Shown in pieces: positions 15,923 to 64,000 of a stretch of 64,000 nucleotides of DNA. The stretch's first letter is position 1; each line of letters begins with the position of its first letter. The DNA comes from Chelatococcus asaccharovorans (GTDB taxonomy: Bacteria; Pseudomonadota; Alphaproteobacteria; Rhizobiales; Beijerinckiaceae). Under the pieces are notes generated by a model. The model made no database searches, was not told the origin of the DNA, and worked only from the letters and a program-made list of their open reading frames with translations. The DNA is taken from contig NZ_QJJK01000012.1 of assembly GCF_003201475.1 (NCBI RefSeq), forward strand, positions 1 through 64,000. The letters run 5' to 3'. The translations under genes were made by a program, and so were the position numbers.

Positions 15923-16229
15923 GGGGCCCTTCCGGGGTGATGTTGAAGGGTGGACGATTGGACGGCGAAGACAATCAGGATTCAGCGAGCCGCAGGAGAT
16001 GGCCCACTGTCAATCAGGCCCCGCAACCGAAAGGATTGTTGATGGCGGAGTTATGACGATTTCGACATTTCGTCACGTTTCTGCAACGCTCGGCAACTAC
16101 GGGACCCGCGGTGCCGCGATCTCCCCTCCAAGCGTGAGCTCTTGACGCCATCGCCCGGCCATGCTGTATTTGTAACTATACGGTTACTTACAAATCGCCG
16201 CTCCTCCGGCGATGTAAAGGGGAAACACC
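15923..16229. other. Divergent intergenic region with promoter of the Gfo/Idh/MocA-DUF993 cassette
   Basis: 307 nt without genes. It contains the promoter and palindrome listed at 16142-16195 and the ribosome binding site AAGGGG just before 16230. Nothing else notable was found; the minus-strand promoter for the secreted protein was not identified. Confidence 0.6.
16142..16195 (+). promoter_or_regulatory. Promoter with overlapping palindromic operator
   Basis: TTGACG (16142-16147) and TGTATT (16165-16170) are 17 nt apart, a good sigma-70 type promoter. From the -10 box onward lies ATTTGTAA (16168-16175) and its exact complement TTACAAAT (16188-16195), with a nested GTAAC-N6-GTTAC (16172-16176/16183-16187). 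A repressor bound here would block the promoter. The regulator is not encoded next to it. Confidence 0.6.
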
Positions 16230-17399
16230 ATGGCGGTACAACGTCTCGGCCTCATCATGCACGGCATCACCGGCCGCATGGGCTACAACCAGCATCTCGT
16301 GCGCTCGATCTGCGCCATTCGCGATCAGGGCGGTGTTGCACTGCCGAACGGCGACCGGGTCATGCCCGACCCGATCCTGGTGGGACGCAATGGCGAGAAA
16401 ATCGCCGAGATCGCCAGGAAGCACGGCATTGCCCGCACCTCGACCGATATCGACGGCGCACTCGCCAATCCCGAGGACACCGTCTTCTTTGATGCCGGCT
16501 CCACCGTCATGCGCGCCGGCTTGCTGACCCGCGCGATCGAGGCCGGCAAGCATGTCTATTCGGAAAAGCCGATCGCCGAGACGATCGGGGAGGCGCTGGC
16601 CGTCGCCGAGCTCGCCCGCAAGCGCGGCGTCAAGAACGGCGTGGTGCAGGACAAGCTCTATCTGCCGGGCCTGCGCAAGATCAAGATGCTCAACGAAGCC
16701 GGCTTCTTCGGCCGCATTCTCTCGGTCCGCGGCGAGTTCGGCTACTGGGTGTTCGAGGGCGACTGGGGGCAGCCGGCGCAGCGGCCGAGCTGGAACTATC
16801 GCAAGGGCGACGGCGGCGGCATCATCCTCGATATGCTCTGCCACTGGCGCTATGTCCTCGACAACCTGTTCGGTGAGGTCAAAGCCGTCTCCTGCCTCGG
16901 CGCCACCCACATCCCGACGCGCATCGGCGAGGACGGCAAGCCCTATACCGCCGATGCGGACGACGCGGCTTACGCCACCTTCGAGCTGGAAGGCGGCATC
17001 ATCGCCCAGATCAACTCCTCCTGGGCCGTGCGCGTGAAGCGCGACGATCTCGTGACCTTCCAGGTCGACGGCACCCACGGCTCGGCAGTCGCCGGCCTCA
17101 CCCGCTGCTTCACGCAGCACCGGGTGAACACGCCGCGGCCGGTGTGGAACCCGGATCAGCCGCAGACCATGAAATTCGCGGATCAATGGGACGAAGTGCC
17201 CGACAACCAGGTCTACGACAACGGCTTCAAGGCCCAGTGGGAGGATTTCATCCGCCATGTGGTGGCCGACACGCCGTGGAAATTCGATCTCATGCAGGGC
17301 GTGAAGGGCGTGCAGCTCGCGGAGCTCGGCCTGAAGAGCTGGGCGGAACGTCGCTGGCTCGACGTGCCGCCGGTCGAGACGCTGGCACAAGTGCGGTGA
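16230..17399 (+). CDS. Gfo/Idh/MocA-family oxidoreductase
   Basis: 389 residues. The NAD(P)-binding Rossmann part contains the motif EKPIAET (residues about 112-118) with the conserved Lys of the family. The C-terminal beta-sheet domain includes GGGIILDMLCHWRYVLD, where Asp and His correspond to the usual catalytic pair. Such enzymes oxidise or reduce polyols and sugars. It has a good ribosome binding site (AAGGGG) and is the first gene after the promoter at 16142. Its stop overlaps the next start (TGATG), indicating coupling with the DUF993 gene. Substrate unknown. Confidence 0.88.
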   Translation: MAVQRLGLIMHGITGRMGYNQHLVRSICAIRDQGGVALPNGDRVMPDPILVGRNGEKIAEIARKHGIARTSTDIDGALANPEDTVFFDAGSTVMRAGLLTRAIEAGKHVYSEKPIAETIGEALAVAELARKRGVKNGVVQDKLYLPGLRKIKMLNEAGFFGRILSVRGEFGYWVFEGDWGQPAQRPSWNYRKGDGGGIILDMLCHWRYVLDNLFGEVKAVSCLGATHIPTRIGEDGKPYTADADDAAYATFELEGGIIAQINSSWAVRVKRDDLVTFQVDGTHGSAVAGLTRCFTQHRVNTPRPVWNPDQPQTMKFADQWDEVPDNQVYDNGFKAQWEDFIRHVVADTPWKFDLMQGVKGVQLAELGLKSWAERRWLDVPPVETLAQVR

Positions 17400-51622: not shown

Positions 51623-52705
51623 TCAGGGGAAATCGGTCGTGCCACGCGCCATCAGATCCGGCTCGATCAGGATGCCATGCTGGGTGTTGCGTCCGTCGAT
51701 CCTGTCGAGGAGCATCCGCATCGCCAGCTCGCCCAGGTCCTGCTTGGCGACACGCAGGGTCGTGAGCGCCGGAGAAACGAATGCCGCCACCGGGATGTCA
51801 TCACATCCGGTCACGGCAATCTCCTCCGGCACGGCGATGCCCTCGCCCTTCATCACGGACATCGCGCCGATCGCAATGAGATCGTTGTAGCAGACCAGCG
51901 CGTCGATCGCGCCGCGATGGGCTAACAAGGCCCGGCCAACCGCGGAGCCACCCGCGAGATCCGGAGAACTCGACACCTCCGTCACGAGGCCGAGCCCATG
52001 TCGCGCAAGGGCCCGGTCGAGGCCGCTGCGGCGCTTCTGACCGCCGTAGGATGTGGAGAGCCCGGAGGCGAAGGCAAACCGGCGGCGCCCCTGCGCGATC
52101 AATTTCTCGACCAGCGCTTCGACCGCCGCGGCATAGTCGATCTCGATGGTCCCGGCGATTCGGCGTGGAAGGACCCGGTTGATGAGAACGACCGCACGGT
52201 GCCCCTCGATCGCCCGGAGCAGACGTTTCTCCTCAAGACGCGCGCTGCAGAGGATGACGCCGTCGACGCGGCGTTCCAGCAGCGTGCCGATGACCTCCTC
52301 CTCCCGCTCGGGATCCTCGACGACATTGCAGGTGAGCAGCGTATAGCCCGCCGGGCGCGCGGCGAGTTCCGCGCCGCGAATGATCTCCGGGAAAAAGGGG
52401 TTGGCAATATCGGGCACGACGATGCCGACGACTTTCGAACGATCGACGCGCAAATTCTTGGCAAAACTGTTCGGCCGGTAGTTCAGCGCGCCGGCAACTT
52501 CCAGGACCCGAGCGCGCGTCTCGGCGCTGGCGCCACCCCGGTCGTTGAGGACGCGCGACACCGTCATCGGGGAAACGCCGGCGGCGGACGCAACATCGGT
52601 GATCGTCACCGACCGTCCCGCCGTCAGCTCCGGCGCTGCTGCAATCGATGTCCGGGAGGATCGCATAGGGCTCTTGGCATCCATCGGGCTCTTGGCATCC
52701 ATCAT
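51623..52705 (-). CDS. LacI-family transcriptional regulator
   Basis: 360 residues: helix-turn-helix (ITDVASAAGVSPMTVSRVLNDRGGASAETRARVLEVAGALNYRPN) and a periplasmic-binding-like effector domain. Start ambiguous: an 18-bp tandem duplication (52668-52703) encodes MDAKSP twice and provides ATGs at 52705, 52702, 52684 and 52666; none before 52684 has a clear ribosome binding site. It diverges from the transporter/glycosidase operon, and matching half-sites AACGATAAC lie next to both starts, so it most likely represses both. The effector is probably the imported sugar. Confidence 0.9.
   Translation of the reverse strand: MMDAKSPMDAKSPMRSSRTSIAAAPELTAGRSVTITDVASAAGVSPMTVSRVLNDRGGASAETRARVLEVAGALNYRPNSFAKNLRVDRSKVVGIVVPDIANPFFPEIIRGAELAARPAGYTLLTCNVVEDPEREEEVIGTLLERRVDGVILCSARLEEKRLLRAIEGHRAVVLINRVLPRRIAGTIEIDYAAAVEALVEKLIAQGRRRFAFASGLSTSYGGQKRRSGLDRALARHGLGLVTEVSSSPDLAGGSAVGRALLAHRGAIDALVCYNDLIAIGAMSVMKGEGIAVPEEIAVTGCDDIPVAAFVSPALTTLRVAKQDLGELAMRMLLDRIDGRNTQHGILIEPDLMARGTTDFP
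52668..52703. repeat. 18-bp tandem duplication at the start of the LacI gene
   Basis: The 18-nt unit GGGCTCTTGGCATCCATC occurs twice without a gap (52668-52685, 52686-52703). It adds a hexapeptide to the regulator N-terminus and an extra start codon, and could vary in copy number. Confidence 0.85.
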
Positions 52706-52710
52706 GATTT

Positions 52711-52728
52711 AACGATAGCGTTATCGTT
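52711..52728. promoter_or_regulatory. LacI-type operator O1
   Basis: AACGATAGCGTTATCGTT, a CG-centred palindrome (8 of 9 paired positions) typical of LacI-family sites, 5 nt upstream of the regulator start. It shares the half-site AACGATAAC (on its complement) with the site at 52857. Confidence 0.7.
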
Positions 52729-52843
52729 CCTTATTCCGCCGCGCAGCAGCCATTCATCCTCATCATCATCTGACTGTTAGCACAGCAATAGGGGGTTATC
52801 CAACGCCTCACAGCGGTCGCGAACAAAAATCCGCCCTCGGTCC

Positions 52844-52874
52844 TTGACGACATTCGAACGATAACGATAACGTA
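52844..52874 (+). promoter_or_regulatory. Promoter of glycoside operon with LacI-type operator O2
   Basis: TTGACG (52844-52849) and GATAAC (52866-52871) are 16 nt apart. AACGATAACGATAACGTA (52857-52874) covers the -10 box and contains the half-site AACGATAAC twice in overlapping direct copies, with partial dyad symmetry. A repressor here would block the promoter. AGGGAGGG before 52924 is the ribosome binding site of the first gene. Confidence 0.6.
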
Positions 52875-52923
52875 ACTGCATCGCCCCGATCTCGATCGAG
52901 AAGGCGCATAGGGAGGGTCGCTC

Positions 52924-54867
52924 ATGATCTCGAGCCAACGCGCGCTCGGACGCGCGATATTGTACCTGTCCATCGGCTGCGGTGTTCTTGGTATCCCGGA
53001 ACTGACGATGCGCGCAGCGCTGGCCGCTGACTACAAGGAGGCGCCGAGCCTTGCGAAGGAGGTTGCCGCAGGCAAGCTTCCGCCTGTCGCCGAACGCCTC
53101 CCGACGAATCCGCTGGTCGTCAAGCCCGTCAATTCCATCGGCAGCTATGGCGGCACGTGGCGGCAGGCGCTCGTGGGAGCCTCAGACGGCCTGCTTGAGC
53201 GGACAATAGGGTATACGCGCCTCGTGCGCTGGGATCCGCAATGGACCGGCGTCGTGCCCGACGTCGCCGAAAGCTATTCGGCGAATAGCGACGGCACCGT
53301 GTATACGTTCAAGCTTCGCAAAGGTATCAAGTGGTCCGACGGGACACCGTTCACCGCCGACGATATCCTGTTCTGGTACAACGACATCTTGATGAACAAG
53401 GAGATCACGCCAGCCGTGCCGCGCTGGCTGAGATCGGGCAATGATCCTGTGGTTGTCTCGAAGGTGGACGATGAGACGATCCAGTTCAGTTTCAAGTCGC
53501 CGAACGGCATGCTTCTCTACTATCTCGCCAGCAATATCGGCTCGGATATCCTGGCGGGTTCCCCCGCGCATTACCTGAAGAAATTCCACAAGGCCTATAA
53601 TCCTGACGTCGATCAACTGGTGAAGGCGGCCGGCGCGCCGAGCTGGGTCGCACTCATCCAGGCCAAGGTCGGCAACTGGCAGTCGCCGGACCGGTGGCGC
53701 GATGCCGCGCGGCCCGTCCTCGATCCGTGGAAGCTGACGGTGCCCTACACCGGCACCACGCAGGTGGTCGCGGAGCGCAATCCCTACTATTTCAAGGTGG
53801 ATCCCGAGGGCAACCAGCTCCCCTATATCGATCGTGTCACCTATGACGTCATGGGTGATGTCCAGTCCGTCATCCTGAAGGCGACCAATGGCGGCCTCGA
53901 CATGCAGGCGCAGCGACTCAATTCGCTGGAAACGGGCATGGTCCTCGCCGCGCATCGTGAACAGGGCGGCTACAAGCTGTTCAAGGTCCAACCTGCCTGG
54001 TCGAACGGCATGCTCATCTGCCTTAATCAGACCGTCAAGAACCCGGTTCTGCGGCAAGTCTTCCAGAACAAAGACTTCCGGATCGGCCTGTCGCTGGCGA
54101 TCAACCGCGATGAAATCAACGATATCCTTTACGCTGGCCAGTCGCGCCCCTATCAGGCCGTGCCCCGGCCCGGGACGGCGCTCTATGATGAGAAACTCGC
54201 CACCCAATATACGCAATTCGATGTAAAGGCCGCCAACGCCGCGCTTGACCGAACGGGCTTCACCAAGCGGGACGACCAGGGCTATCGCATCGGCCCCGAC
54301 GGCAAGCGCATTGCGTTTTCCATCGACGTGCAGACCGCGCGGAAGGATCATATCGACGCGCTCGAATTGATCCGTAAGTATTGGAAGGCCGTCGGCATCG
54401 ACATGCAGCCCAAGCCGATCGAATCGTCATTCGCTGTGGCGCGCATGCTGGCCAACGATCAGGAAGGCCTCGTGTGGATCGGTGGCGGCGGCTATGATTT
54501 CCTCGGACTTCTTGATCCCAAATGGTACTTCCCCTACGAGAACCAGTCGGCGTTTGGCTCGGCCTGGGGCATCTACTACCAGAACCCGAAGGATCCGAAC
54601 GCCGAGGAGCCGCCGGCCTGGGCCAAGAAGCAGCAGGATCTCTACACCGAACTGCTGAAGACCGTCAGTGACGAGGGCAAGCTCGCACTGATGCGCCAGA
54701 TCCTGGCGATCACCGGCGAGGAATTTCCTGTGATCGGCACGGATATGGACCCCGATAACTACGGCGTCGTGAAGACCAATTTCCACAACGTGCCGGACAT
54801 CATGCCGGATACGGCCTTCTACGTGACGCCCGGACCGACGAATCCCGAGCAATACTTCATGAAGTAG
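52924..54867 (+). CDS. Peptide/oligosaccharide-type ABC transporter substrate-binding protein (SBP family 5, long form)
   Basis: 647 residues. A signal peptide-like N-terminus (IGCGVLGIPELTMRAALA-AD, about 18-37) is followed by LAKEVAAGKLPPVAERLPTNPLV and the SBP_bac_5 fold (GTVYTFKLRKGIKWSDGTPFTADDILFWYNDI, FQNKDFRIGLSLAINRDEIND). Proteins of this longer class often bind oligosaccharides rather than peptides (for example the alpha-galactoside-binding AgpA of Sinorhizobium). The genes downstream, including a glycosidase, favour a glycoside ligand. It is the first gene after the LacI-controlled promoter. Confidence 0.9.
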   Translation: MISSQRALGRAILYLSIGCGVLGIPELTMRAALAADYKEAPSLAKEVAAGKLPPVAERLPTNPLVVKPVNSIGSYGGTWRQALVGASDGLLERTIGYTRLVRWDPQWTGVVPDVAESYSANSDGTVYTFKLRKGIKWSDGTPFTADDILFWYNDILMNKEITPAVPRWLRSGNDPVVVSKVDDETIQFSFKSPNGMLLYYLASNIGSDILAGSPAHYLKKFHKAYNPDVDQLVKAAGAPSWVALIQAKVGNWQSPDRWRDAARPVLDPWKLTVPYTGTTQVVAERNPYYFKVDPEGNQLPYIDRVTYDVMGDVQSVILKATNGGLDMQAQRLNSLETGMVLAAHREQGGYKLFKVQPAWSNGMLICLNQTVKNPVLRQVFQNKDFRIGLSLAINRDEINDILYAGQSRPYQAVPRPGTALYDEKLATQYTQFDVKAANAALDRTGFTKRDDQGYRIGPDGKRIAFSIDVQTARKDHIDALELIRKYWKAVGIDMQPKPIESSFAVARMLANDQEGLVWIGGGGYDFLGLLDPKWYFPYENQSAFGSAWGIYYQNPKDPNAEEPPAWAKKQQDLYTELLKTVSDEGKLALMRQILAITGEEFPVIGTDMDPDNYGVVKTNFHNVPDIMPDTAFYVTPGPTNPEQYFMK

Positions 54868-54874
54868 GGGTTGC

Positions 54875-54897
54875 GAGGCGCGCGCCAAGCGCGCCTC
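54875..54897 (+). other. Strong intercistronic hairpin after binding-protein gene
   Basis: GAGGCGCGC (54875-54883) pairs perfectly with GCGCGCCTC (54889-54897), loop 5 nt, starting 8 nt after the binding-protein stop. No T run. Same position as the hairpin at 39715-39744 in the other sugar operon, suggesting it raises the level of binding-protein mRNA relative to the downstream genes. Confidence 0.65.
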
Positions 54898-54992
54898 CTT
54901 CCCAACGATCGACAACGCCATCCACGACGAGCGGTCGGCGCCCGCGGACGGAAAGCGCGTGGGCGCGCAGACGGTACAGCGAAGGAGTGATC

Positions 54993-55979
54993 ATGTGGCG
55001 CTTCATTGCACATCGTGTCGTCTATACGGCGCTGACACTGGCTGCCGTATCCCTGGTGTCGTTCCTCATCATCCAGCTTCCGCCTGGCGACTTCCTGACG
55101 TCGCTTGCGGGCAAGATGGCCGAGCAAGGTGGCGACCTCGATAGTGCTTCGCTCGCCGGTCTCAAGGCCCGCTATGGCCTGGACCAGCCCTGGTACATCC
55201 AGTACTGGCGCTGGATAACCGGCATTCTTCTGCACGGCGACTTCGGCCAATCCTTCGAGTGGAACAAGCCGGTCTCCGAGTTGCTCTGGGATCGCATGGG
55301 GATGACCCTCCTCCTGTCGCTGGTCACCTTGATCGTAACCTGGATGCTGGCTTTGCCGATCGGGATCTACAGCGCGGTCCGGCGCTATTCCCTGCTCGAC
55401 TATGTCGTGACGTTCCTCGGTTTCATCGGGCTTGCGATACCGAGCTTCCTGCTCTCGCTCGCGCTCATGTATATCCTGTCGCGCTACGCCGGCATGAGCG
55501 TCGGTGGCCTGTTTTCGCCAGCCTATGTCAATGCGCCGTGGAGCTGGGCGAAGCTCGTGGATCTCGCCGCGCATCTGTGGCTGCCCGTGCTGATCCTCTC
55601 GACATCCGGCACAGCGGCGCTGATCCGCGTCATGCGCGCCAATCTGATCGACGAGTTGCACAAGCCCTATGTGCAGACAGCCCGGGCCAATGGTCTCGGC
55701 GAGATGGAACTGCTGTTCAAATATCCTGTGCGCGTTGCGCTCAACCCCTTCGTCTCGACGATCGGATGGGTCTTGCCGCATCTCTTCTCCGGTGCGGTGA
55801 TCGTCTCCGTCGTCTTGAGCCTGCCGACCGCCGGCCCGCTCCTTCTCAGCGCGCTTCTCGCGCAGGATATGTATCTGGCCGGCAGTTTCATCCTCATCCT
55901 GTCGGCCCTGACAGTCATCGGCACCTTGTTGTCGGATCTGCTGCTCGCCTGGCTCGACCCGCGCGTGCGCTACCAGTGA
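54993..55979 (+). CDS. ABC transporter permease, OppB type
   Basis: 328 residues: N-terminal helix with FIAHRVVYTALTLAAVSLVSFLIIQLPPGDFL, the loop RYGLDQPWYIQYWRWITGILLHGDFGQSF, and the EAA region PYVQTARANGLGEMELLFKYPVRVALNPFVSTIGWVLPHLFSG. ATG 54993 has GAAGGAG 5 nt upstream. Six membrane helices expected. It forms the channel with the next gene. Confidence 0.93.
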   Translation: MWRFIAHRVVYTALTLAAVSLVSFLIIQLPPGDFLTSLAGKMAEQGGDLDSASLAGLKARYGLDQPWYIQYWRWITGILLHGDFGQSFEWNKPVSELLWDRMGMTLLLSLVTLIVTWMLALPIGIYSAVRRYSLLDYVVTFLGFIGLAIPSFLLSLALMYILSRYAGMSVGGLFSPAYVNAPWSWAKLVDLAAHLWLPVLILSTSGTAALIRVMRANLIDELHKPYVQTARANGLGEMELLFKYPVRVALNPFVSTIGWVLPHLFSGAVIVSVVLSLPTAGPLLLSALLAQDMYLAGSFILILSALTVIGTLLSDLLLAWLDPRVRYQ

Positions 55980-55989
55980 GGTCCTTGCA

Positions 55990-57120
55990 ATGACAGACGC
56001 AACGGCCACCGGTGGCCTGTCGCCACCTCGCCGAAAGCTCGTGGAGCTCGGCCAATGGGGCCTTATCTATCGGCGTTTTCGCAAGCACAAGCTCGCCTAC
56101 TGGAGCGGCTTCATCGTGCTGGCGATCTATGCGGTCGCGCTTTTCGCCGAATTCGTGGCGCCCTATTCCTCGGACCGCTACAACCCGCGCTATATCTATT
56201 CACCACCGCAAATGCTCAAGATGTTCGGCCGCGATCAGAATGGCGATCTCGCGCTGTTATACGTGAACGGATACAAGGTCGAGCTTGACCCTGTGGCCTT
56301 GCAGCGGCGCTTCGTCATCGATGAAAGCCGGGTTTATCCCGTCGGCTTCTTTGTGAAAGGCGAGCCCTATCACCTGTTTGGCCTGATCCCGGCGGAACGC
56401 CATCTGATCGGCCCGGTCGACCCCGATGCACCGATGTATCTCTGGGGCACGGATCGCCTCGGCCGGGATCTTCTCAGCCGCACCATCCATGGCACCCGCA
56501 TCTCGATGTCGATCGGCCTCGTCGGTGTCACCATCAGCCTCGTGCTCGGCATCCTGCTTGGCGGCATCTCGGGCTATTACGGCGGCTGGGCGGACCAGGC
56601 GGTGCAGAGGACGATCGACTTCCTGAAGTCGATCCCCACCATTCCGCTGTGGATGGGACTGGCCGCCGCCATTCCCGACCGCATGGACCCGCTGCTCGTC
56701 TATTTCTGGATCACCGTCATCCTGTCGTTGATCGGCTGGACGGATCTGGCGCGCGTCGTGCGCGGCCGCTTCCTGTCGCTCAAGACGGAGGATTTCGTGA
56801 TGGCGGCGCGGCTCGACGGCTGCAGCCGCCAGCGTGTGATCTGGCACCACATGGTGCCCTCCTTCACCAGCCATATCGTCGCCTCGGTGACGCTTGCCAT
56901 TCCGGCGATGATCCTGGCCGAGACGTCGCTCTCCTTCCTCGGCATCGGCCTGAAGCCGCCGGTGGTCAGCTGGGGCGTCCTCCTGAAGGATGCGCAAAGC
57001 CTTCTTGCGCTCACCCAGGCACCCTGGCTCTTCCTGCCGGGCATCCCGGTGGTCGTTGCCGTCCTTGCCCTCAATTTCCTTGGAGATGGGATCCGTGATG
57101 CGGCTGACCCCTATTCCTGA
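55990..57120 (+). CDS. ABC transporter permease, OppC type with long periplasmic loop
   Basis: 376 residues, about 80-90 longer than the DppC type at 23828. The extra part is a periplasmic stretch after the first helix (residues about 55-140, with YSSDRYNPRYIYSPPQMLKMFGRDQNGD and GFFVKGEPYHLFGL). The domain then follows the family: GTDRLGRDLLSRTIHGTRISM, EDFVMAARLDGCSRQRVIWHHMVPSFTSH, FLGIGLKPPVVSWGVLL. This long form is often found with the long SBP class. Confidence 0.92.
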   Translation: MTDATATGGLSPPRRKLVELGQWGLIYRRFRKHKLAYWSGFIVLAIYAVALFAEFVAPYSSDRYNPRYIYSPPQMLKMFGRDQNGDLALLYVNGYKVELDPVALQRRFVIDESRVYPVGFFVKGEPYHLFGLIPAERHLIGPVDPDAPMYLWGTDRLGRDLLSRTIHGTRISMSIGLVGVTISLVLGILLGGISGYYGGWADQAVQRTIDFLKSIPTIPLWMGLAAAIPDRMDPLLVYFWITVILSLIGWTDLARVVRGRFLSLKTEDFVMAARLDGCSRQRVIWHHMVPSFTSHIVASVTLAIPAMILAETSLSFLGIGLKPPVVSWGVLLKDAQSLLALTQAPWLFLPGIPVVVAVLALNFLGDGIRDAADPYS

Positions 57121-58225
57121 TGCGGGCCTGGGTGTGCCGCCTGTGCCGCGGCCGGCGGCCGAACCGCAAGACCTGCTTTTCGAGGTCGAGAACCTCAAGG
57201 TTCATTTCGCGACGGACGACGGGCTCGTCCGCGCCGTCGATGGCGTGACCTTCGGCATTCCGCGCGCGAAGACCGTCTGCATCGTCGGTGAATCCGGCTC
57301 CGGCAAGTCGATCACCGGCCGTTCGCTGATGAACCTGCTGCCGCATACGGCGCGCATCGTCGATGGTCACGTGCTCTATCATCCCGAGCCGGGGCGGACG
57401 ATCGACATCGGCAAGCTCGACCCGCGCGGCAAGCCCATCCGTGCCCTGCGGGGCAAGGATGTGTCCTTCATCTCGCAGGAGCCGATGGCGGCGCTCTCCC
57501 CGGTCCACACGATCGGCCAGCAGATGGTGCCCGTTATCAGCCGCCATCTCAAGCTCGGCCGCCGGGAAGCCACCGAGCGGGCCGCCGCCATGCTGGCGCG
57601 CGTCGGCATTCCGAAGCCGGCCGAGCGGCTCGGCAGCTATCCCTTCGAGTTCTCGGGCGGCATGCGCCAGAGGGTGTGCATCGCACTCGCCCTCTCCTGC
57701 CGGCCGAAGCTGGTGATCGCGGACGAGCCGACCACGGCTTTGGATGTCACGACCCAAGCCAATATCATCGATCTGCTGGTGGAGTTGCAGGAAGAATCCG
57801 GCCTGTCGATTCTCTTCATCACCCATGACCTGGGCGTGGTCGCGGAGGTCGCGAGCGACGTCGTCGTGATGTATCTCGGCAAGGTGGTCGAGCGCGGCAG
57901 CGTCGAAGAAATCTTCCACGATCCGCGCCATCCCTACACGCGCGCGCTGCTGAGATCCGTACCGCGGCTCGGCGCCGGCCGTGATACTCGGCTGGCCGCG
58001 ATACGCGGGATGGTGCCTTCCCCCTTCGACAGGCCGAAAGGCTGCGACTTCCATCCGCGATGCGATTTCGCGATCGCCGGCACCTGCGATGTGACGGCCC
58101 CGCCGGATGTGGCCCTTGGGGGCAGCCGTTCCGTGCGGTGCGTCTTGCCGGAGGCCATTCGCCCGCCCGTGCAGCGCGCAGAGACCCCGCCCAGCTCCAC
58201 ACAAAGGACCCTTCGCCATGGCTGA
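57098..58225 (+). CDS. ABC transporter ATP-binding protein, OppD type
   Basis: 375 residues with Walker A GESGSGKS, signature FSGGMRQR, Walker [12 protein letters not shown], switch His in [11 protein letters not shown], and the C-terminal oligopeptide/dipeptide cysteine motif ([16 protein letters not shown]) that can bind an iron-sulfur cluster. It overlaps the permease gene by 23 nt. ATG 57098 is used; ATG 57086 is possible. Confidence 0.93.
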
Positions 58226-59288
58226 AGCGATTGGCAGTGCGGCGGGCGCGCAGAGCCTGCTGGAATTGCGCGACGTCGCCAAGGTGTTCGCGCCTCGCAC
58301 GACGTTCTTCGGGCGCGGCAAGAGCCGGCCCGTCAGGGCCGTCGACGGCGTGTCCTTCGATATCAGGGCCGGTGAGACGCTCGGGGTCGTCGGCGAATCC
58401 GGGTGCGGAAAGTCCACCGTCACCCGCTGCATACTCGGCATTCACGAGGTTTCGTCCGGCACGATCCGCTATCGCGATCGCGACGGTCGGATGATCGACC
58501 TGACGGCCTTGAGCGAGCACGAGCGGCTTGCCTATTGCACCGACCTCAGGATCGTTTTTCAGGATCCCCAGGCCTCCCTCAATCCGCGCCTGCCTGTCAT
58601 CGACATCGTCGGCGAGGTGCTCAAGGTCAACCATCTCCTGCCGCGCTCCGAAATCGAGGGGCGGGTCCGCGAGCTGTTGCAGCGCGTGGGGCTCCGGCCG
58701 GAATATGCGCGTCGCTATCCCCATGCCTTTTCCGGCGGAGAGCGGCAACGGGTCGGCATCGCCCGCGCCTTGGCGACCAATCCCCGCCTCGTCATCCTTG
58801 ACGAGGCCGTCTCGGCGCTCGATGTCAGTGTCCGCGCGCAGACGCTCAATCTCCTGAAGGATCTGCAGCAGGAATTCGGGCTCACCTATCTCTTCGTCAG
58901 CCACGATCTCAGCGTCATCGAATATATCTGCGACCGCGTCGTCGTGATGTATGTCGGTCAGATCGTCGAGATCGCCAATGCCGCGGACCTCTTCGCCCGC
59001 CCGATGCATCCCTATACCGAGGCACTTCTTTCGGCCCTGCCCGTGCCGGATCCCGCCTTCAAACGCCGCGGTCGCCGCATTCACCTGCCGGGCGAGGTGG
59101 CCGATCCCGCCAACCGCCCGGCCGGTTGCAGTTTCCATCCCCGATGCCGTTTCGCGACGGAACGCTGCAAGGCGGAGACCCCGGCCTTGCGCAGCGTCGC
59201 AGGTCGCACTGTCGCCTGTCACCACGCCGAGGACCTTGCGTTGCAGGGCGTCAATATGGGCTCGAGCCCAGAGGTTCAGCATGCCTAA
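58218..59288 (+). CDS. ABC transporter ATP-binding protein, OppF type
   Basis: 356 residues with Walker A GESGCGKST, signature FSGGERQR, Walker B VILDEAVSALD, switch His in FVSHDLSVI and the C-terminal cysteine motif (GCSFHPRCRFATERC). It overlaps the OppD gene by 8 nt and the iolB start by 8 nt. With OppD it forms the ATPase heterodimer, so this importer, unlike the one at 23.8-27.1 kb, is complete. Confidence 0.93.
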   Translation: MAEAIGSAAGAQSLLELRDVAKVFAPRTTFFGRGKSRPVRAVDGVSFDIRAGETLGVVGESGCGKSTVTRCILGIHEVSSGTIRYRDRDGRMIDLTALSEHERLAYCTDLRIVFQDPQASLNPRLPVIDIVGEVLKVNHLLPRSEIEGRVRELLQRVGLRPEYARRYPHAFSGGERQRVGIARALATNPRLVILDEAVSALDVSVRAQTLNLLKDLQQEFGLTYLFVSHDLSVIEYICDRVVVMYVGQIVEIANAADLFARPMHPYTEALLSALPVPDPAFKRRGRRIHLPGEVADPANRPAGCSFHPRCRFATERCKAETPALRSVAGRTVACHHAEDLALQGVNMGSSPEVQHA

Positions 59289-60114
59289 GCTTATTCGCCA
59301 GGAGGATGGCGCCAACCGTCCCATCCTCATCGAGGACGCGGTGCTTGATCGTGTCTATTTCACCTGTCTCCGGCTCTCCCCGGGAGAGACGTTCGAGCTG
59401 CGGCTGCCGCGCCATGAATGCGTCATCGTGCTGATGTCCGGCACCGCCGACGTCCTCGTCGATGGCGAGCGCTTCGCGGCCGTCGGCGGGCGCGCGGACG
59501 TATGGTCAGGCGTCGCCGATTCCGTCTACGCGCCGCTCGGCGCCACGATAAAGATCGCGGCTTTGGCGGCGCCTGTCGAGGTCGCGATCGCCGGCGGCTT
59601 GACCGAGGAACGCCACAGCGCCTTTCGCATCAGGCCCGAAGAGGTCGAGACCGTGGAGGTGGGTTCGCCGGGAACCCATAGCCGGCGGCGCATCCTGCAT
59701 ATCCTGGGGCAGAACGGCCGCGGCCGCACCGGCCATCTCCTCGTCAGTGAGCTCTATGCGGATGACGGCTGCTGGTCCGGCTATCCTCCGCATAAGCACG
59801 ACACCGACCGCAACGAGGGCGAGACCGATCATCAGGAGCTCTATCATTATCGCTTCTCGCCGCCATCCGGCTTCGGCGTGCAGGTGACGTATGACGGTGA
59901 GAGGGAAACCTGCTTCATGACGCGTGATCGCGACACGGTCCTCGTCGACAGCGGCTATCACCCGACTGTCACATCCCCCGGTCATCGATCCTACATCTTC
60001 ACGATCCTGGTCGGGAAATCACACCGCGGACTGGTGCAATATTTCGACCCCGCGCATCTTCACCTCACGGAAACGATCCCGGGCATTCAGGCGATGCGTG
60101 ACAAATTCAAGTAA
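59281..60114 (+). CDS. iolB: IolB family isomerase (5-deoxy-glucuronate isomerase-like)
   Basis: 277 residues, a two-cupin IolB protein. The metal-binding residues are visible: His171 and His173 (YPPHKHD), Glu186 with the following YHYRF motif, and His227 (SGYHPT). In myo-inositol breakdown IolB turns 5-deoxy-glucuronate into 2-deoxy-5-keto-gluconate. No other iol genes are in this operon; it stands between a transporter and a glycosidase. It may therefore isomerise a uronic acid released by the GH39 enzyme. Fold assignment is firm, substrate is inferred. Confidence 0.88.
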   Translation: MPKLIRQEDGANRPILIEDAVLDRVYFTCLRLSPGETFELRLPRHECVIVLMSGTADVLVDGERFAAVGGRADVWSGVADSVYAPLGATIKIAALAAPVEVAIAGGLTEERHSAFRIRPEEVETVEVGSPGTHSRRRILHILGQNGRGRTGHLLVSELYADDGCWSGYPPHKHDTDRNEGETDHQELYHYRFSPPSGFGVQVTYDGERETCFMTRDRDTVLVDSGYHPTVTSPGHRSYIFTILVGKSHRGLVQYFDPAHLHLTETIPGIQAMRDKFK

Positions 60115-60202
60115 CGCTGCACGACTTTGGCATCCTCAGGCGTCGCCCCTTCCGCCTCCGCGCACGACATCCGGATGACCATCGATGATCGAGGGATTTG
60201 AC

Positions 60203-62059
60203 ATGGCCGACACCACCGCCATCCGCGTCGACCTCACAGGCGCCGCCACGCCCTTCCGCCGGTTCTGGCGGTCCACGGGTTTTTCCCCGGCCGAACTTCT
60301 CCTCGAGCCGGAGATGCAGCAGACGCTCGCCTATGTCGGTGGTGTTCCGCGCCATGGCATCGAATATCTGCGCGTGCATTACATGCTCGACCTTGTCACG
60401 GCCGAACGCTTCGGCCGGTATGACTGGACAAGGCTAGACCGGGCCCTTGATGTCATCTCCGAATACCGTCTCAAGCCTTTCTTCGAGCTCATGGGAAACC
60501 CGTCCTATCTTTTCACGGATCTCAACGCGCGTGATCAGGTCCACCACTGGCGCGACTTCATGGCCGAGCTCGCGCACCGTTATCGCCAGCGCTTCGGCGC
60601 GGAGGAATTGCGCAGCTGGTATTTCGAGACATGGAACGAGCCGGACATCTGGTGGACGCTCGGCGGCGAGACCGGCTTCAACAACTATTATGACGCCTGT
60701 CACGAGGGTTTGCGCGCCGTCGAGCCCGAGATCACGCTCGGCGGCCCCGGCGTTGCCCGCCGCATTCCGCCGATCTTCAAGTCTTTCCTGGCCCATTGCG
60801 ATACGGGCGAGAATGTCTTCACCGGCGAGCGCGGCGTTCGCCTCGATTTCATCTCGGTGCATGAAAAAGGCGCGCGCAAACATGCCGAAGATCTCACGCC
60901 GAACTCGCTGGCCATCTGCCAGCATGAGATGATGGCCGTGGATTATGTCAGGCAGCATCATCCCCGCTTCGCCCATCTTCCTTTCATCAACAACGAATGC
61001 GATCCCCAGATCGGCTGGCATATCCACCATACCTGGCACGCCTTGCCCTACTTTGCCGGGCTCGCGGCGAAGATCATCGATCAACACCAGCGCCTCATCA
61101 TCGACAACGAGGGGGTGGACTATCCCGTACTGAGCAACGACAACGGCTTCCTTGGCCGCTGGGGCAACCGTACTCATCTCGCCTATTTCGGCGACAAGGA
61201 CATCAAGGCGGCGCAGAACGAGCATCTGACGGACATCGGCGCCCTGGACCAGCGCGTCGCGGAGCCGGAACCCTTCGAGCTCATCAAGAAGCCGGCGCTG
61301 TCGGTGATGGAACTGCTCGCCTGGCTGGGGGAGGAGCGCCTCAGCGTCAGCGGTGATCCGCTCGATCCGGACAGAGATGGTCTCGGCGTGATCGCAACCC
61401 GGCTCAGCGGGGGGGATCCCGCGATCCTCGTCTATTACAGCGTCGATTCCTTCCGGCGTTCCGGGGAGCGACCCGTGCGCCTCACCTTCGACAACGTGGC
61501 GCCCGGCGTTTACGCCCTGGCCCTGTTCCGCATCGAGGACGGTCGCGGCGACCCCTATTCGGTCTGGGAGACGCTTGATGATCTCGACAAGCCGGGCGTG
61601 GAAGCGCTCGCCGCCATGCGCGCGGCTCAGGAGCCGGCGCTCGCCATCGAGCAGATCCACGTGTCCGCGGCGAACCCGCAGGCAACGATCAAGCTGGATA
61701 TCGCTCTTCCGGGTGTCGCGCTCGCTGTTCTTGCCCGTCGCGGGGACGAGGGCCCCAGCATGCCGAGAGATCTGAAGCTCACCGCCTATGCGGGCCTCAA
61801 CGGTGCCGTCAACACGGTGCTGTTCTGGCAGACCGGTGGATCGGACAGCCTCGAGCTGTTCGACGTTTTCTGGAGCGAGAGCGAAAACGGGCCCTACCGC
61901 GTCGTCAATCCGGCTCCCCTGCTGTCGACGGTCTATCTGCACAGCGCCGGCGGGGAAGCCGGATTCTACAAGGTCCAGGCGCGTGACGTCTTCGGGCGGG
62001 TGAGCCCGCCGTCCCCGGCCGTGCCTGGCATAGCCGCTGCTCCTTCCGCCGCCCGATGA
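60203..62059 (+). CDS. Glycoside hydrolase family 39, alpha-L-iduronidase-like
   Basis: 618 residues, no signal peptide, so cytoplasmic. GH39 catalytic residues: acid/base Glu146 (FETWNEPD) and nucleophile Glu265 (FINNECDPQIGW), 119 residues apart (117 in human alpha-L-iduronidase, Glu182/Glu299). Beyond the barrel, PVLSNDNGFL, IKKPALSVMELLAWLGEE and the C-terminal fibronectin type III-like domain (about 520-605) follow the order of animal iduronidase as I remember it, not that of bacterial beta-xylosidases. It probably removes a uronic acid or xylose unit from an imported glycoside. ATG 60203 has GAGGGA 7 nt upstream. Confidence 0.8.
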   Translation: MADTTAIRVDLTGAATPFRRFWRSTGFSPAELLLEPEMQQTLAYVGGVPRHGIEYLRVHYMLDLVTAERFGRYDWTRLDRALDVISEYRLKPFFELMGNPSYLFTDLNARDQVHHWRDFMAELAHRYRQRFGAEELRSWYFETWNEPDIWWTLGGETGFNNYYDACHEGLRAVEPEITLGGPGVARRIPPIFKSFLAHCDTGENVFTGERGVRLDFISVHEKGARKHAEDLTPNSLAICQHEMMAVDYVRQHHPRFAHLPFINNECDPQIGWHIHHTWHALPYFAGLAAKIIDQHQRLIIDNEGVDYPVLSNDNGFLGRWGNRTHLAYFGDKDIKAAQNEHLTDIGALDQRVAEPEPFELIKKPALSVMELLAWLGEERLSVSGDPLDPDRDGLGVIATRLSGGDPAILVYYSVDSFRRSGERPVRLTFDNVAPGVYALALFRIEDGRGDPYSVWETLDDLDKPGVEALAAMRAAQEPALAIEQIHVSAANPQATIKLDIALPGVALAVLARRGDEGPSMPRDLKLTAYAGLNGAVNTVLFWQTGGSDSLELFDVFWSESENGPYRVVNPAPLLSTVYLHSAGGEAGFYKVQARDVFGRVSPPSPAVPGIAAAPSAAR

Positions 62060-62070
62060 GGCTTCAATCC

Positions 62071-62883
62071 ATGCAACATGCCTTCTTTACAAAACCGTTT
62101 CGCGACGTATCGACCGCCACAATGGCTGAAACCGTCCGTGATCTCGGCTTTGGCTCCATAGACCTCCTCATCCGCGATGGATGGCACGTGGCGCCGGCCA
62201 CCATCGGCACGCTGGGCGACATGGTTCGCGGGCTGCGTGACCATGGCCTCGCCGTCGCCATGGTGACGACCGATATCACGGATGCCGAGGATCCGGCGAC
62301 GCCATCCATCCTCGACCATTGCGCGGCCGCCGGCATCGATCTCCTGCGGATCGGCTATTGGCGCTATGATCCCGCCCAGGGGTATGCGGCAATCCGCGAC
62401 CGCGGTCGGCGTGAGTTGGCGGCGCTCGCGCGCCTTGCCGAGCGGGCCGGCGTCCGACTGGCCTTGCAGATGCACGGCGGCACGATCCACAGCTCGAGCG
62501 CCCAGATGCTGGCCCTGCTCGATGACTGCGATCCGCGGTTCATGACGGCCTTCGTCGATCCCGGCAATCAGGCTGTTCAGGAAGGCCGCGAACACTGGCA
62601 AGTCACCTTCGATGCGCTCGCGCCCTGGCTCTCGGTCGTCGGTGTGAAGAACGGCGGCTGGTTTCCCGGCGAGATCGATGCCGAGGGGCAGCGGCGTTGG
62701 CATGCGGACTGGATGCCGCTCTCCGAGGGCATGGTGCCCTGGCATGATATCATCGACCACCTCAAGGCAACCGGCTTCGCGGGCGTGCTCTCCCAGCAGA
62801 GCCACTATCGCCTGCCCTATCCCCAACTCATCGACATCAGCCGTGCCGACCATGGCTTCGTCGCACGACGTCTGGCGCAATAG
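62071..62883 (+). CDS. Sugar phosphate isomerase/epimerase family protein
   Basis: 270 residues, xylose-isomerase-like TIM barrel (HAFFTKPFRDVSTATMAETVRDLGFGSIDLLIRDGWHV, LALQMHGGTIHSSS, TAFVDPGNQAVQEG, VVGVKNGGWFPGE). The typical metal-binding Glu of the fourth strand appears to be replaced (LQMHGG), so the metal site may differ. ATG 62071 has GAGG nearby; ATG 62056, overlapping the GH39 stop as ATGA, is an alternative. It likely acts on the sugar released by the glycosidase or on the product of IolB. Confidence 0.83.
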   Translation: MQHAFFTKPFRDVSTATMAETVRDLGFGSIDLLIRDGWHVAPATIGTLGDMVRGLRDHGLAVAMVTTDITDAEDPATPSILDHCAAAGIDLLRIGYWRYDPAQGYAAIRDRGRRELAALARLAERAGVRLALQMHGGTIHSSSAQMLALLDDCDPRFMTAFVDPGNQAVQEGREHWQVTFDALAPWLSVVGVKNGGWFPGEIDAEGQRRWHADWMPLSEGMVPWHDIIDHLKATGFAGVLSQQSHYRLPYPQLIDISRADHGFVARRLAQ

Positions 62884-62919
62884 CTATCCGATCCTTTGAA
62901 TGACTGGCGGAATATTATC

Positions 62920-63960
62920 ATGAGCTTTGCCATCCACACATCCGCGGGCAATGCGGCGAGCAACCATCCCCTCGTCACGATTCTCCTTCCTCCAGAGGCC
63001 CGCAGCCTCGTGCTCAGCCAGGCCGCGTTGGAGAAATTGCGCGGCTTCGCGCGGGTGCGGACAACCGACGAGACAGCGCTGACCGAACCGCTCATGGCGC
63101 AACTGCTGGATGGCGCCGCAATCTGCATCACCGGGTGGGGAACCCCGCCACTTGAGCCCTATCTCCCCGCCTGCGACCAACTGGGTTTGGTCGCGCATTG
63201 CGCGGGGAGCATTCGCCGCCTCGTTCCGGCGGCAGCGGTGGCGGATGGGTTGCGTGTCACGCATGCGGCGGCGGCGATCGGGGACTCCGTCGCCGAGTTC
63301 ACCGTGGCGCAGATCCTGATGGCGCTTCGCCATGGAGATGCCTTCGACAGCGGATTGAAGGCCGGCGCGGGCTGGGACATGCGGAACCGCTATCCCGGCC
63401 GGCTCCTTGGCGCGCTCACTGTCGGCATCGTCGGTGGCGGCTATGTCGGCCGATCCGTGATCCGGCTCATCCGCCCCTTCGGGGCGCGGGTCCTCGTCAC
63501 CGATCCGGTGATGAGCGACGAGGCCGCGCGGGACCTTGGCGCCGAGCGGGTGCCGCTCGATAGGCTGATCGCGCAAAGCGACGTGGTCTCATTGCACGCG
63601 CCGCTTCTGCCGGAGACCACCGGCATGTTTGGCGCGGCCGAACTGGCGCGGCTCAAGGACGGCGCGCTCCTCGTCAATATGGCGCGATCGCCGCTGGTCG
63701 ACGAGGAGGCCCTCATCGCGGAGTTGCGCAGCGGACGTATCCGCGCGGCGCTCGACGTGTTCAATGTCGAGCCATTGCCCATGGCGAGCCCGTTCCGCGA
63801 TCTCGGCGGGCATGTGCACCTGTCGCCCCATGCGGCAGGGCACACCCAGGACGGGCACTGGCGGCAGGGCGACCTCATCGTCGCGGAGATTGAACGGTTC
63901 ATGCGCGGCGAGCCGCTGCGCCATGAAATTACCGCCGCGAGCTACGACCGCATGGCCTGA
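62920..63960 (+). CDS. D-2-hydroxyacid dehydrogenase
   Basis: 346 residues of the D-isomer-specific 2-hydroxyacid dehydrogenase family. The NAD motif GIVGGGYVG is near residue 170. The catalytic Arg (NMARSPLVDEEAL), Glu (FNVEPLP) and His (LSPHAAGHT) are all present. ATG 62920 is preceded by GGCGGA; TTG 62896 is an alternative. As the last gene of the operon in the window it could reduce or oxidise a 2-keto or 2-hydroxy sugar acid derived from the uronate. The final 40 nt of the window show no gene. Confidence 0.88.
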   Translation: MSFAIHTSAGNAASNHPLVTILLPPEARSLVLSQAALEKLRGFARVRTTDETALTEPLMAQLLDGAAICITGWGTPPLEPYLPACDQLGLVAHCAGSIRRLVPAAAVADGLRVTHAAAAIGDSVAEFTVAQILMALRHGDAFDSGLKAGAGWDMRNRYPGRLLGALTVGIVGGGYVGRSVIRLIRPFGARVLVTDPVMSDEAARDLGAERVPLDRLIAQSDVVSLHAPLLPETTGMFGAAELARLKDGALLVNMARSPLVDEEALIAELRSGRIRAALDVFNVEPLPMASPFRDLGGHVHLSPHAAGHTQDGHWRQGDLIVAEIERFMRGEPLRHEITAASYDRMA

Positions 63961-64000
63961 CGGACGGGCGCGGCCTGCGGCGCGCGCGACCGTGCCAGGG

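Follow-up and report, generated by a model that had tools for sequence, protein, structure and literature searches.

A LacI-controlled operon of Chelatococcus asaccharovorans with a predicted alpha-L-iduronidase and a proposed route from L-iduronate to gluconate

Organisation and control of the operon

The window analysed here is the first 64 kb of contig NZ_QJJK01000012.1 (C12, 291,916 bases) of Chelatococcus asaccharovorans, whose 7.25 Mb genome is assembled in 40 contigs. At positions 52924-63960 it carries nine open reading frames (ORFs) on the forward strand, which follow one another with short gaps or overlaps and lie divergent to a gene for a LacI-family regulator (Table 1). They encode a solute-binding protein (SBP), two permeases and two ATPases of an ABC importer, an IolB-like isomerase, a glycosidase of family GH39, a xylose-isomerase-like TIM-barrel protein and a D-2-hydroxyacid dehydrogenase. 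This is the order that had been given in an original prediction made from the sequence alone, and the Pfam family of each of the nine agrees with the name proposed there. The operon probably, though by no means certainly, serves the LacI-controlled import of alpha-L-iduronides, their hydrolysis, and the isomerisation and reduction of the product to gluconate. The chances appear about even that saturated L-iduronic acid here has its first complete route of catabolism, with an isomerase recruited from the IolB branch of inositol catabolism, and that in a variant of this route the place of the reductase is taken by a TIM-barrel isomerase or epimerase together with a D-2-hydroxyacid dehydrogenase. 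The listed ORF starts are probably too early for some genes, and likelier starts judged from the sequence and from alignments lie near 58218 for the second ATPase, 60203 for GH39 and 62071 for the TIM-barrel protein.

The LacI-type operator that had been predicted ahead of the operon is borne out. When up to two mismatches are allowed, the pattern ACGATAACGTTATCGT has three matches in the genome, two of which (52712 and 52858) lie within the 218 bp gap between the LacI and SBP genes; a control pattern gave one match in the same search. A related motif, which was picked only after inspection of the homologous regions, is present in 34 of 39 homologous intergenic regions from the survey described below (all except L014, L024, L026, L027 and L081), and it was found in 0 of 3900 shuffles and had zero matches in the remaining 871 kb of those loci. 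The 39 regions exclude L013, which was skipped, and L012, in which the LacI gene was not matched.

Table 1. Features of the operon and its control region (positions in the window)
Feature	Position	Strand	Basis and remarks
LacI-family regulator	51623..52705	-	Pfam LacI and Peripla_BP_3; divergent; present in 37/38 alphaproteobacterial loci
LacI-type operator AACGATAGCGTTATCGTT near LacI start	52711..52728		One mismatch against a perfect palindrome core
Second operator-like site	52857..52875		49 bp before SBP start
Solute-binding protein, family 5 / cluster C	52924..54867	+	Pfam SBP_bac_5; nearest structure SPH1118, 454 bits
ABC permease B	54987..55979	+	Pfam BPD_transp_1
ABC permease C	55990..57120	+	Pfam BPD_transp_1
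ABC ATPase D (start uncertain)	57071..58225	+	Pfam ABC_tran and oligo_HPY
ABC ATPase F (start inferred)	58218..59288	+	Pfam ABC_tran and oligo_HPY
IolB-like isomerase, proposed L-iduronate isomerase	59281..60114	+	Pfam KduI, 232 bits; IolB model, 172 bits (cut-off 205); own clade
Predicted GH39 alpha-L-iduronidase, by eye without signal peptide	60203..62059	+	Pfam Glyco_hydro_39; structure and residue comparison
Xylose-isomerase-like TIM-barrel protein	62071..62883	+	Pfam AP_endonuc_2; poor model, TIM fold matches
D-2-hydroxyacid dehydrogenase	62896..63960	+	Pfam 2-Hacid_dh_C; nearest structures phosphoglycerate dehydrogenases, about 115 bits

Conservation of the gene order

Genome contigs were scanned with a GH39 alignment, which yielded 78 loci from the best 80 of 91; the loci were picked by the peptide patterns WYFET[WT]N and ELLLEPEM and are no random sample. 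The analyst's sorting gave 38 iduronidase-type loci from Alphaproteobacteria, 26 further loci of iduronidase type and 14 of xylosidase type, and since 26 of the 38 are named Rhizobium the counts are not independent. Three genomes of the genus share the complete set of nine genes and its arrangement behind LacI, with protein identities of 86-99%, and the nine-gene order behind LacI is found in 23 of the 38 alphaproteobacterial loci. A genome from another genus of the same family (G021) has LacI and the first seven genes, the last two not being nearby. The seven-gene core of importer, IolB-like gene and GH39 is present in 37 of 38 loci, the exception (L025) being a contig of 4.7 kb. Taken singly, LacI, the SBP, both permeases and ATPase D occur in 37 loci, and ATPase F and the IolB-like gene in all 38. 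The IolB-like gene is also found in two of the 26 other iduronidase-type loci (L074 and L079) and in none of the xylosidase-type loci. Comparison thus establishes a gene order that exceeds chance across other genera and families, and the genes proposed to belong together are linked, not scattered, in related genomes. A search of 385 genomes of the class for a further GH39 of the operon type (E 1e-20, few candidates scored per genome) returned only the window genome.

The GH39 glycosidase

The GH39 protein of the operon is an orthologue, with 47% identity and in the same place of the same operon type, of the alpha-L-iduronidase of Rhizobium leguminosarum whose structure is deposited as 5NDX. 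Its scores against the PDB are 610 bits for 5NDX, 305 bits for human iduronidase and at most 89 bits for xylosidases. An AlphaFold model built with 23 sequences (pLDDT 91) superimposes with a TM-score of 0.92 onto 5NDX and of 0.86-0.87 onto human iduronidase, and of 0.54-0.64 onto GH39 xylosidases and a GH39-like glucosidase. 5NDX itself differs at one position from the operon GH39 of a Rhizobium (locus L036), an identity of 99.84% across 613 residues. The acid/base position is Gln in 5NDX and Glu in the Rhizobium loci, and because Gln replaces the acid/base Glu in an otherwise near-identical protein, 5NDX is read as an engineered mutant of the operon's enzyme. According to its title, which is cut short in the source, a bacterial orthologue of human alpha-L-iduronidase needs no N-glycan modifications to be 'catalyti...'. 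The structure contains 4-methylumbelliferyl iduronide and derives from R. leguminosarum bv. trifolii (excerpt of PMC10794756).

In the human enzyme the carboxylate of iduronate is bound by Lys264, Arg363 and the Gly305-Trp306 main chain, and O4 is bound by Asp349 and Arg363 (excerpts of PMC6343074 and PMC10794756). Equivalents of all five residues are present in the window GH39. The acid/base and nucleophile Glu (182 and 299 in human iduronidase) are found in it and in all iduronidase-type loci long enough to cover these positions. The contact columns are reached by 61 of the 64 iduronidase-type loci (not L075, L077 and L080), and Trp306, Asp349 and Arg363 are kept in all 61 and Gly305 in 60, with Ser in L058. 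The 14 xylosidase-type loci all have other residues in place of the Gly-Trp pair and Arg363 but retain both Glu, the Lys and the Asp. The Arg363 column, for the window protein too, depends on a fragment alignment; HMMER pairs the residue elsewhere.

By its orthology to 5NDX the window GH39 is likely to hydrolyse alpha-L-iduronides. A plain beta-xylosidase, which would have contradicted the original prediction, is rejected on the PDB scores, the model fold (TM-score 0.57-0.64, against 0.92 for 5NDX) and the contact residues, all of which identify the protein as iduronidase type. alpha-L-iduronidase is the human enzyme that is missing in Hurler disease. The bacterial protein has its fold and iduronate contacts in common with the human one at about 34% identity but, unlike it, has by eye no signal peptide and is encoded in a catabolic operon.

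The IolB-like isomerase

The genome holds three KduI/IolB proteins. One, on contig C23, scores high and its gene adjoins an IolE-like gene; the others are the operon protein and a paralogue of the latter on contig C16 (60% identity). Comparison places the operon protein in the Pfam KduI family and below the cut-off of the curated IolB model (Table 1), and the KduI model gave no match to it at E 0.001. A tree of 51 proteins unites the operon proteins with the C16 paralogue (95/93) and sets them apart from the C23 IolB group, several members of which adjoin IolE; the C16 branch is long and its position inside the operon group is weak (81/73). Four residues (His-His-Glu-His) that are taken here to be the metal ligands of the KduI/IolB site are present in 51 of 51 proteins. 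The operon protein has its family and presumed metal ligands in common with IolB of inositol catabolism, but differs in model score and clade and does not lie beside inositol genes.

Nearest to the operon group in the tree is an alphaproteobacterial type whose genes stand, as judged by eye, beside kinase-like and mostly aldolase-like genes. This second IolB type (L103-L115) comes from other Alphaproteobacteria, including some with genomes of about 1.4 Mb, and is 42-46% identical to the operon protein. It is apart from the IolE-linked type, and the kinase-like and mostly aldolase-like neighbours, as in inositol operons, were seen in the eight of 13 neighbourhoods that were read by eye. One record titled Mycobacterium sp. 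KBS0706 (L026, NZ_VCCH02000002.1) has the operon in its Inquilinus form and an IolB-like protein that groups with that of Inquilinus limosus (100/100); the record name is probably wrong.

5-Deoxy-D-glucuronate has no stereocentre at C5 and is hence identical with 5-deoxy-L-iduronate. Since the IolB substrate can be written as 5-deoxy-L-iduronate, the same reaction on L-iduronate would give 5-keto-D-gluconate, which is the 2-hydroxylated analogue of IolB's own product.

The importer

The structure nearest to the operon SBP is SPH1118, the cluster C pectin-binding protein of Sphingomonas sp. A1. Of the ligand contacts described for it (taken from an excerpt of PMC9314435), Arg57 is invariant in the 41 operon SBPs compared. 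All 41 have Lys at position 496; at position 438, 12 have Arg and 26 have Ser; Arg466 is retained in 26, and Trp594 is replaced in at least 40. The window SBP keeps Arg57, Arg438 and Ser298 and has conservative changes of Arg496 to Lys and Val484 to Ile. This residue pattern is compatible with an acidic sugar other than pectin as the ligand. A peptide importer is not favoured, the SBP being closer to SPH1118 than to peptide binders, in line with the sugar uptake that had been predicted.

Short-chain reductases linked to the operon

The hypothesis of 5-keto-D-gluconate as an intermediate, with a D-2-hydroxyacid dehydrogenase and IdnO as follow-up enzymes, was set before the survey of neighbouring genes, in which a candidate for the linked reductase did for the most part turn up. 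A short-chain dehydrogenase/reductase (SDR) is encoded in eight of the 38 alphaproteobacterial loci and in two Flavobacteriia loci. Its gene separates the IolB-like gene from GH39 in L024-L026 (Inquilinus type), L047 (Devosia), L051 and L082 (Rhizobium); in L044 it follows GH39, and in L055 it stands further downstream; in L074 and L079 it adjoins the IolB-like gene beside GH39. Model scans covered the SDRs of L024, L047, L074, C16 and L055. The best gluconate 5-dehydrogenase model scored 321 bits (L024), 291 bits (L047), 352 bits (L074) and 273 bits (C16), against 215, 197, 234 and 232 bits for the best KduD model, and gluconate 5-dehydrogenase is the best named model for the first three. The arrangement is reminiscent of the KduI-KduD and IdnO-Ga5DH pairs in linking a KduI/IolB-family isomerase with an SDR; unlike KduI-KduD, the SDRs beside GH39 in L024, L047 and L074 are closer to gluconate 5-dehydrogenase than to KduD and are coupled to an iduronidase and an importer.

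SDRs at least 49% identical to the Inquilinus-type one are encoded in 13 of 13 genomes searched, and in the window genome they lie on C7 and C16, with a gluconokinase on C2. The C16 region (L017, G000:C16:87000-106000) comprises two SBP-type ABC importers, the IolB-like paralogue, a gluconate 5-dehydrogenase-like SDR and D-2-hydroxyacid dehydrogenases. No GH39 is among the ORFs listed for it, and it perhaps serves the uptake of free uronic acid.

Proposed pathway and alternative readings

It may be inferred from the kinds of protein encoded that the SBP and ABC importer would take up, uncleaved, an oligosaccharide or glycoside that carries L-iduronic acid at its non-reducing end, from which the cytoplasmic GH39 would free L-iduronate. 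The IolB-like isomerase would then catalyse an aldose-to-ketose shift from L-iduronate to 5-keto-D-gluconate (L-sorburonate), and a reductase of the gluconate 5-dehydrogenase type, encoded in the operon of some species and here elsewhere (candidates on C7 and C16), would convert this to D-gluconate for phosphorylation by gluconokinase. The scheme of import, cleavage, isomerisation, and oxidation or reduction that had originally been predicted is thereby supported and can be sharpened to L-iduronate, 5-keto-D-gluconate and gluconate, with the importer ligand, the isomerase reaction, the fate of its product and the roles of the last two proteins as its conditional parts.

Several observations weigh against this route. 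The prediction of the reductase was not blind, because an SDR next to the C16 paralogue had already been noticed and judged IdnO-like, and no scanned SDR passes a curated cut-off. Generic SDR models score higher than gluconate 5-dehydrogenase for the C16 protein (282 and 277 vs 273 bits) and for that of L055, whose ORF looks cut short (356 vs 213 bits). The window operon itself is without an SDR; 23 of 38 loci have the TIM-barrel and dehydrogenase genes, and eight have neither these nor an SDR. An SDR relative of 49-56% identity in every genome is weak evidence, the family being large. Lastly, most SPH1118 contacts are changed in the window SBP, eight of 13 clearly and two more conservatively.

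The TIM-barrel protein and the dehydrogenase, present in this genus and in most Rhizobium loci, would either open another route for 5-keto-D-gluconate or process the remainder of the glycoside. All 23 surveyed loci that encode the pair are named Rhizobium. Of the 38 loci 22 have the pair only, seven the SDR only, one both (L055) and eight neither; the Fisher test for co-occurrence gives p 0.003, for loci that are related. The pair and the SDR may thus be alternative ways to handle 5-keto-D-gluconate, C2 of which has the configuration used by D-2-hydroxyacid dehydrogenases. The C16 cluster holds a D-2-hydroxyacid dehydrogenase and an SDR together with the IolB-like paralogue, and therefore the two are not always alternatives. 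A reaction for the TIM-barrel protein could not be assigned from its fold, since the model is poor (pLDDT 59) and its matches span epimerases, isomerases, eliminases and dehydratases.

That the pair acts on another part of the imported glycoside, an aglycone or a second sugar, and not on the uronic acid is a real possibility, if a somewhat doubtful one. The pair is missing from 15 of the 38 loci, including Bosea and Inquilinus, and a neighbouring pair of the same kind adjoins a different gene, none of the ORFs listed there being IolB-like; the rare co-occurrence of the operon pair with the SDR suggests exchangeable steps instead. The neighbouring pair belongs to a convergent trio on the reverse strand just past position 64000 (L004 14003-17050), in which a protein designated AH (15998-17050) joins a TIM-barrel protein and a D-2-hydroxyacid dehydrogenase. 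The trio is followed by an ABC importer on the opposite strand and is kept in three genomes of the genus. AH gave no Pfam or NCBIfam match and no useful PDB match, and the trio may, from its gene content, represent a second glycoside-type module.

It is unlikely that the operon handles unsaturated (4,5-ene) uronides from pectin or glycosaminoglycans, with the IolB-like protein acting as KduI, the reductase as KduD and 2-keto-3-deoxygluconate as the product. KduI and IolB do form one family, kduI-kduD pairs are known (excerpt of PMC12838403) and the SBP is nearest to a pectin binder. However, the window protein matches IolB and not KduI at E 0.001, and gluconate 5-dehydrogenase is preferred over KduD by 41-118 bits (L024, L047, L074 and C16). 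Furthermore, the retained Asp349 and Arg363 bind O4 of saturated iduronate, which unsaturated uronides do not have, and Pfam named no GH88/GH105 or lyase in the operon.

Equally improbable, it appears, is that the true substrate is a beta-D-glucuronide, for instance a saponin or flavonoid glucuronide from plants, and that the IolB-like protein converts glucuronate to fructuronate. beta-D-Glucuronic and alpha-L-iduronic acid differ only at C5, and many hosts of the operon are legume symbionts; the Rhizobium enzyme, however, binds an iduronide and by its title acts as an iduronidase. The genome also encodes the uronate isomerase UxaC on C5, and glucuronate therefore does not need the IolB-like isomerase. 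Where both models are listed, the linked SDRs, moreover, favour gluconate 5-dehydrogenase over the D-mannonate oxidoreductase model (291 vs 166 in L047, 352 vs 194 in L074).

Relation to earlier work

A 2019 review described the microbial catabolism of L-iduronic acid, an abundant constituent of ulvan, as unclear (excerpt of PMC6353982). In the literature searched, from which most subscription journals were outside the scope, this was the only paper to combine iduronate, 5-keto-D-gluconate and an isomerase. The same searches found no link of L-iduronate with gluconate 5-dehydrogenase, no discussion of an operon of the 5NDX-type GH39, the enzyme alone being described, no mention by name of pRL100276-279, 281 or 282, and nothing related for iduronate and Sphingobacterium. 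The original statement that no pathway with this set of genes had been described agrees with these searches, although a GH39 of the operon type had already been crystallised (5NDX). The parts are of known kinds, and the absence of their combination and of the proposed route from the literature found is weak evidence of novelty.

For every step the operon supplies a candidate enzyme, and it leads to one clear-cut prediction, that L-iduronate is converted to 5-keto-D-gluconate. A bacterial iduronidase that is used as a model of the human enzyme also gains a metabolic context from it and is placed in legume symbionts, as on plasmid pRL10 of Rhizobium johnstonii 3841. The hosts are soil and plant-associated bacteria, and the sugar chain that they import probably ends in L-iduronic acid.

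Genes adjoining related loci

The R. johnstonii pRL10 cluster (L101) is annotated piecewise as 5-deoxy-glucuronate isomerase, glycosyl hydrolase, TIM barrel protein, hydroxyacid dehydrogenase and mandelate racemase; the IolB-like protein of this strain bears the locus tag RL_RS28805. An alpha-L-fucosidase gene lies upstream of LacI and is, by name matching from the annotation, probably pRL100274 (fucA), which has been reported as necessary for pea root attachment at pH 6.5 (excerpt of PMC11406972). In Rhizobium the operon is often followed by a gene for an enolase-like protein (21 loci in ORF clustering; the annotated mandelate racemase on pRL10) and in a few loci by one for a dehydratase, of which the one scanned fits an L-arabinonate dehydratase model. 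Both kinds of neighbour suit the breakdown of sugar acids.

Nine iduronidase-type loci from planctomycete, verrucomicrobial or flavobacterial records (L056, L062-L064, L067-L070 and L073) encode a zinc-type dehydrogenase, mostly directly before GH39. Its identification as L-idonate 5-dehydrogenase was dropped as support for the pathway, as the two proteins scanned scored 73 and 78 bits with the idonate model against 105 and 122 bits with threonine dehydrogenase. Sulfatase-like genes, labelled by eye, adjoin GH39 in L065, L068, L070 and L078, which suggests sulfated polysaccharides as substrates at those loci.

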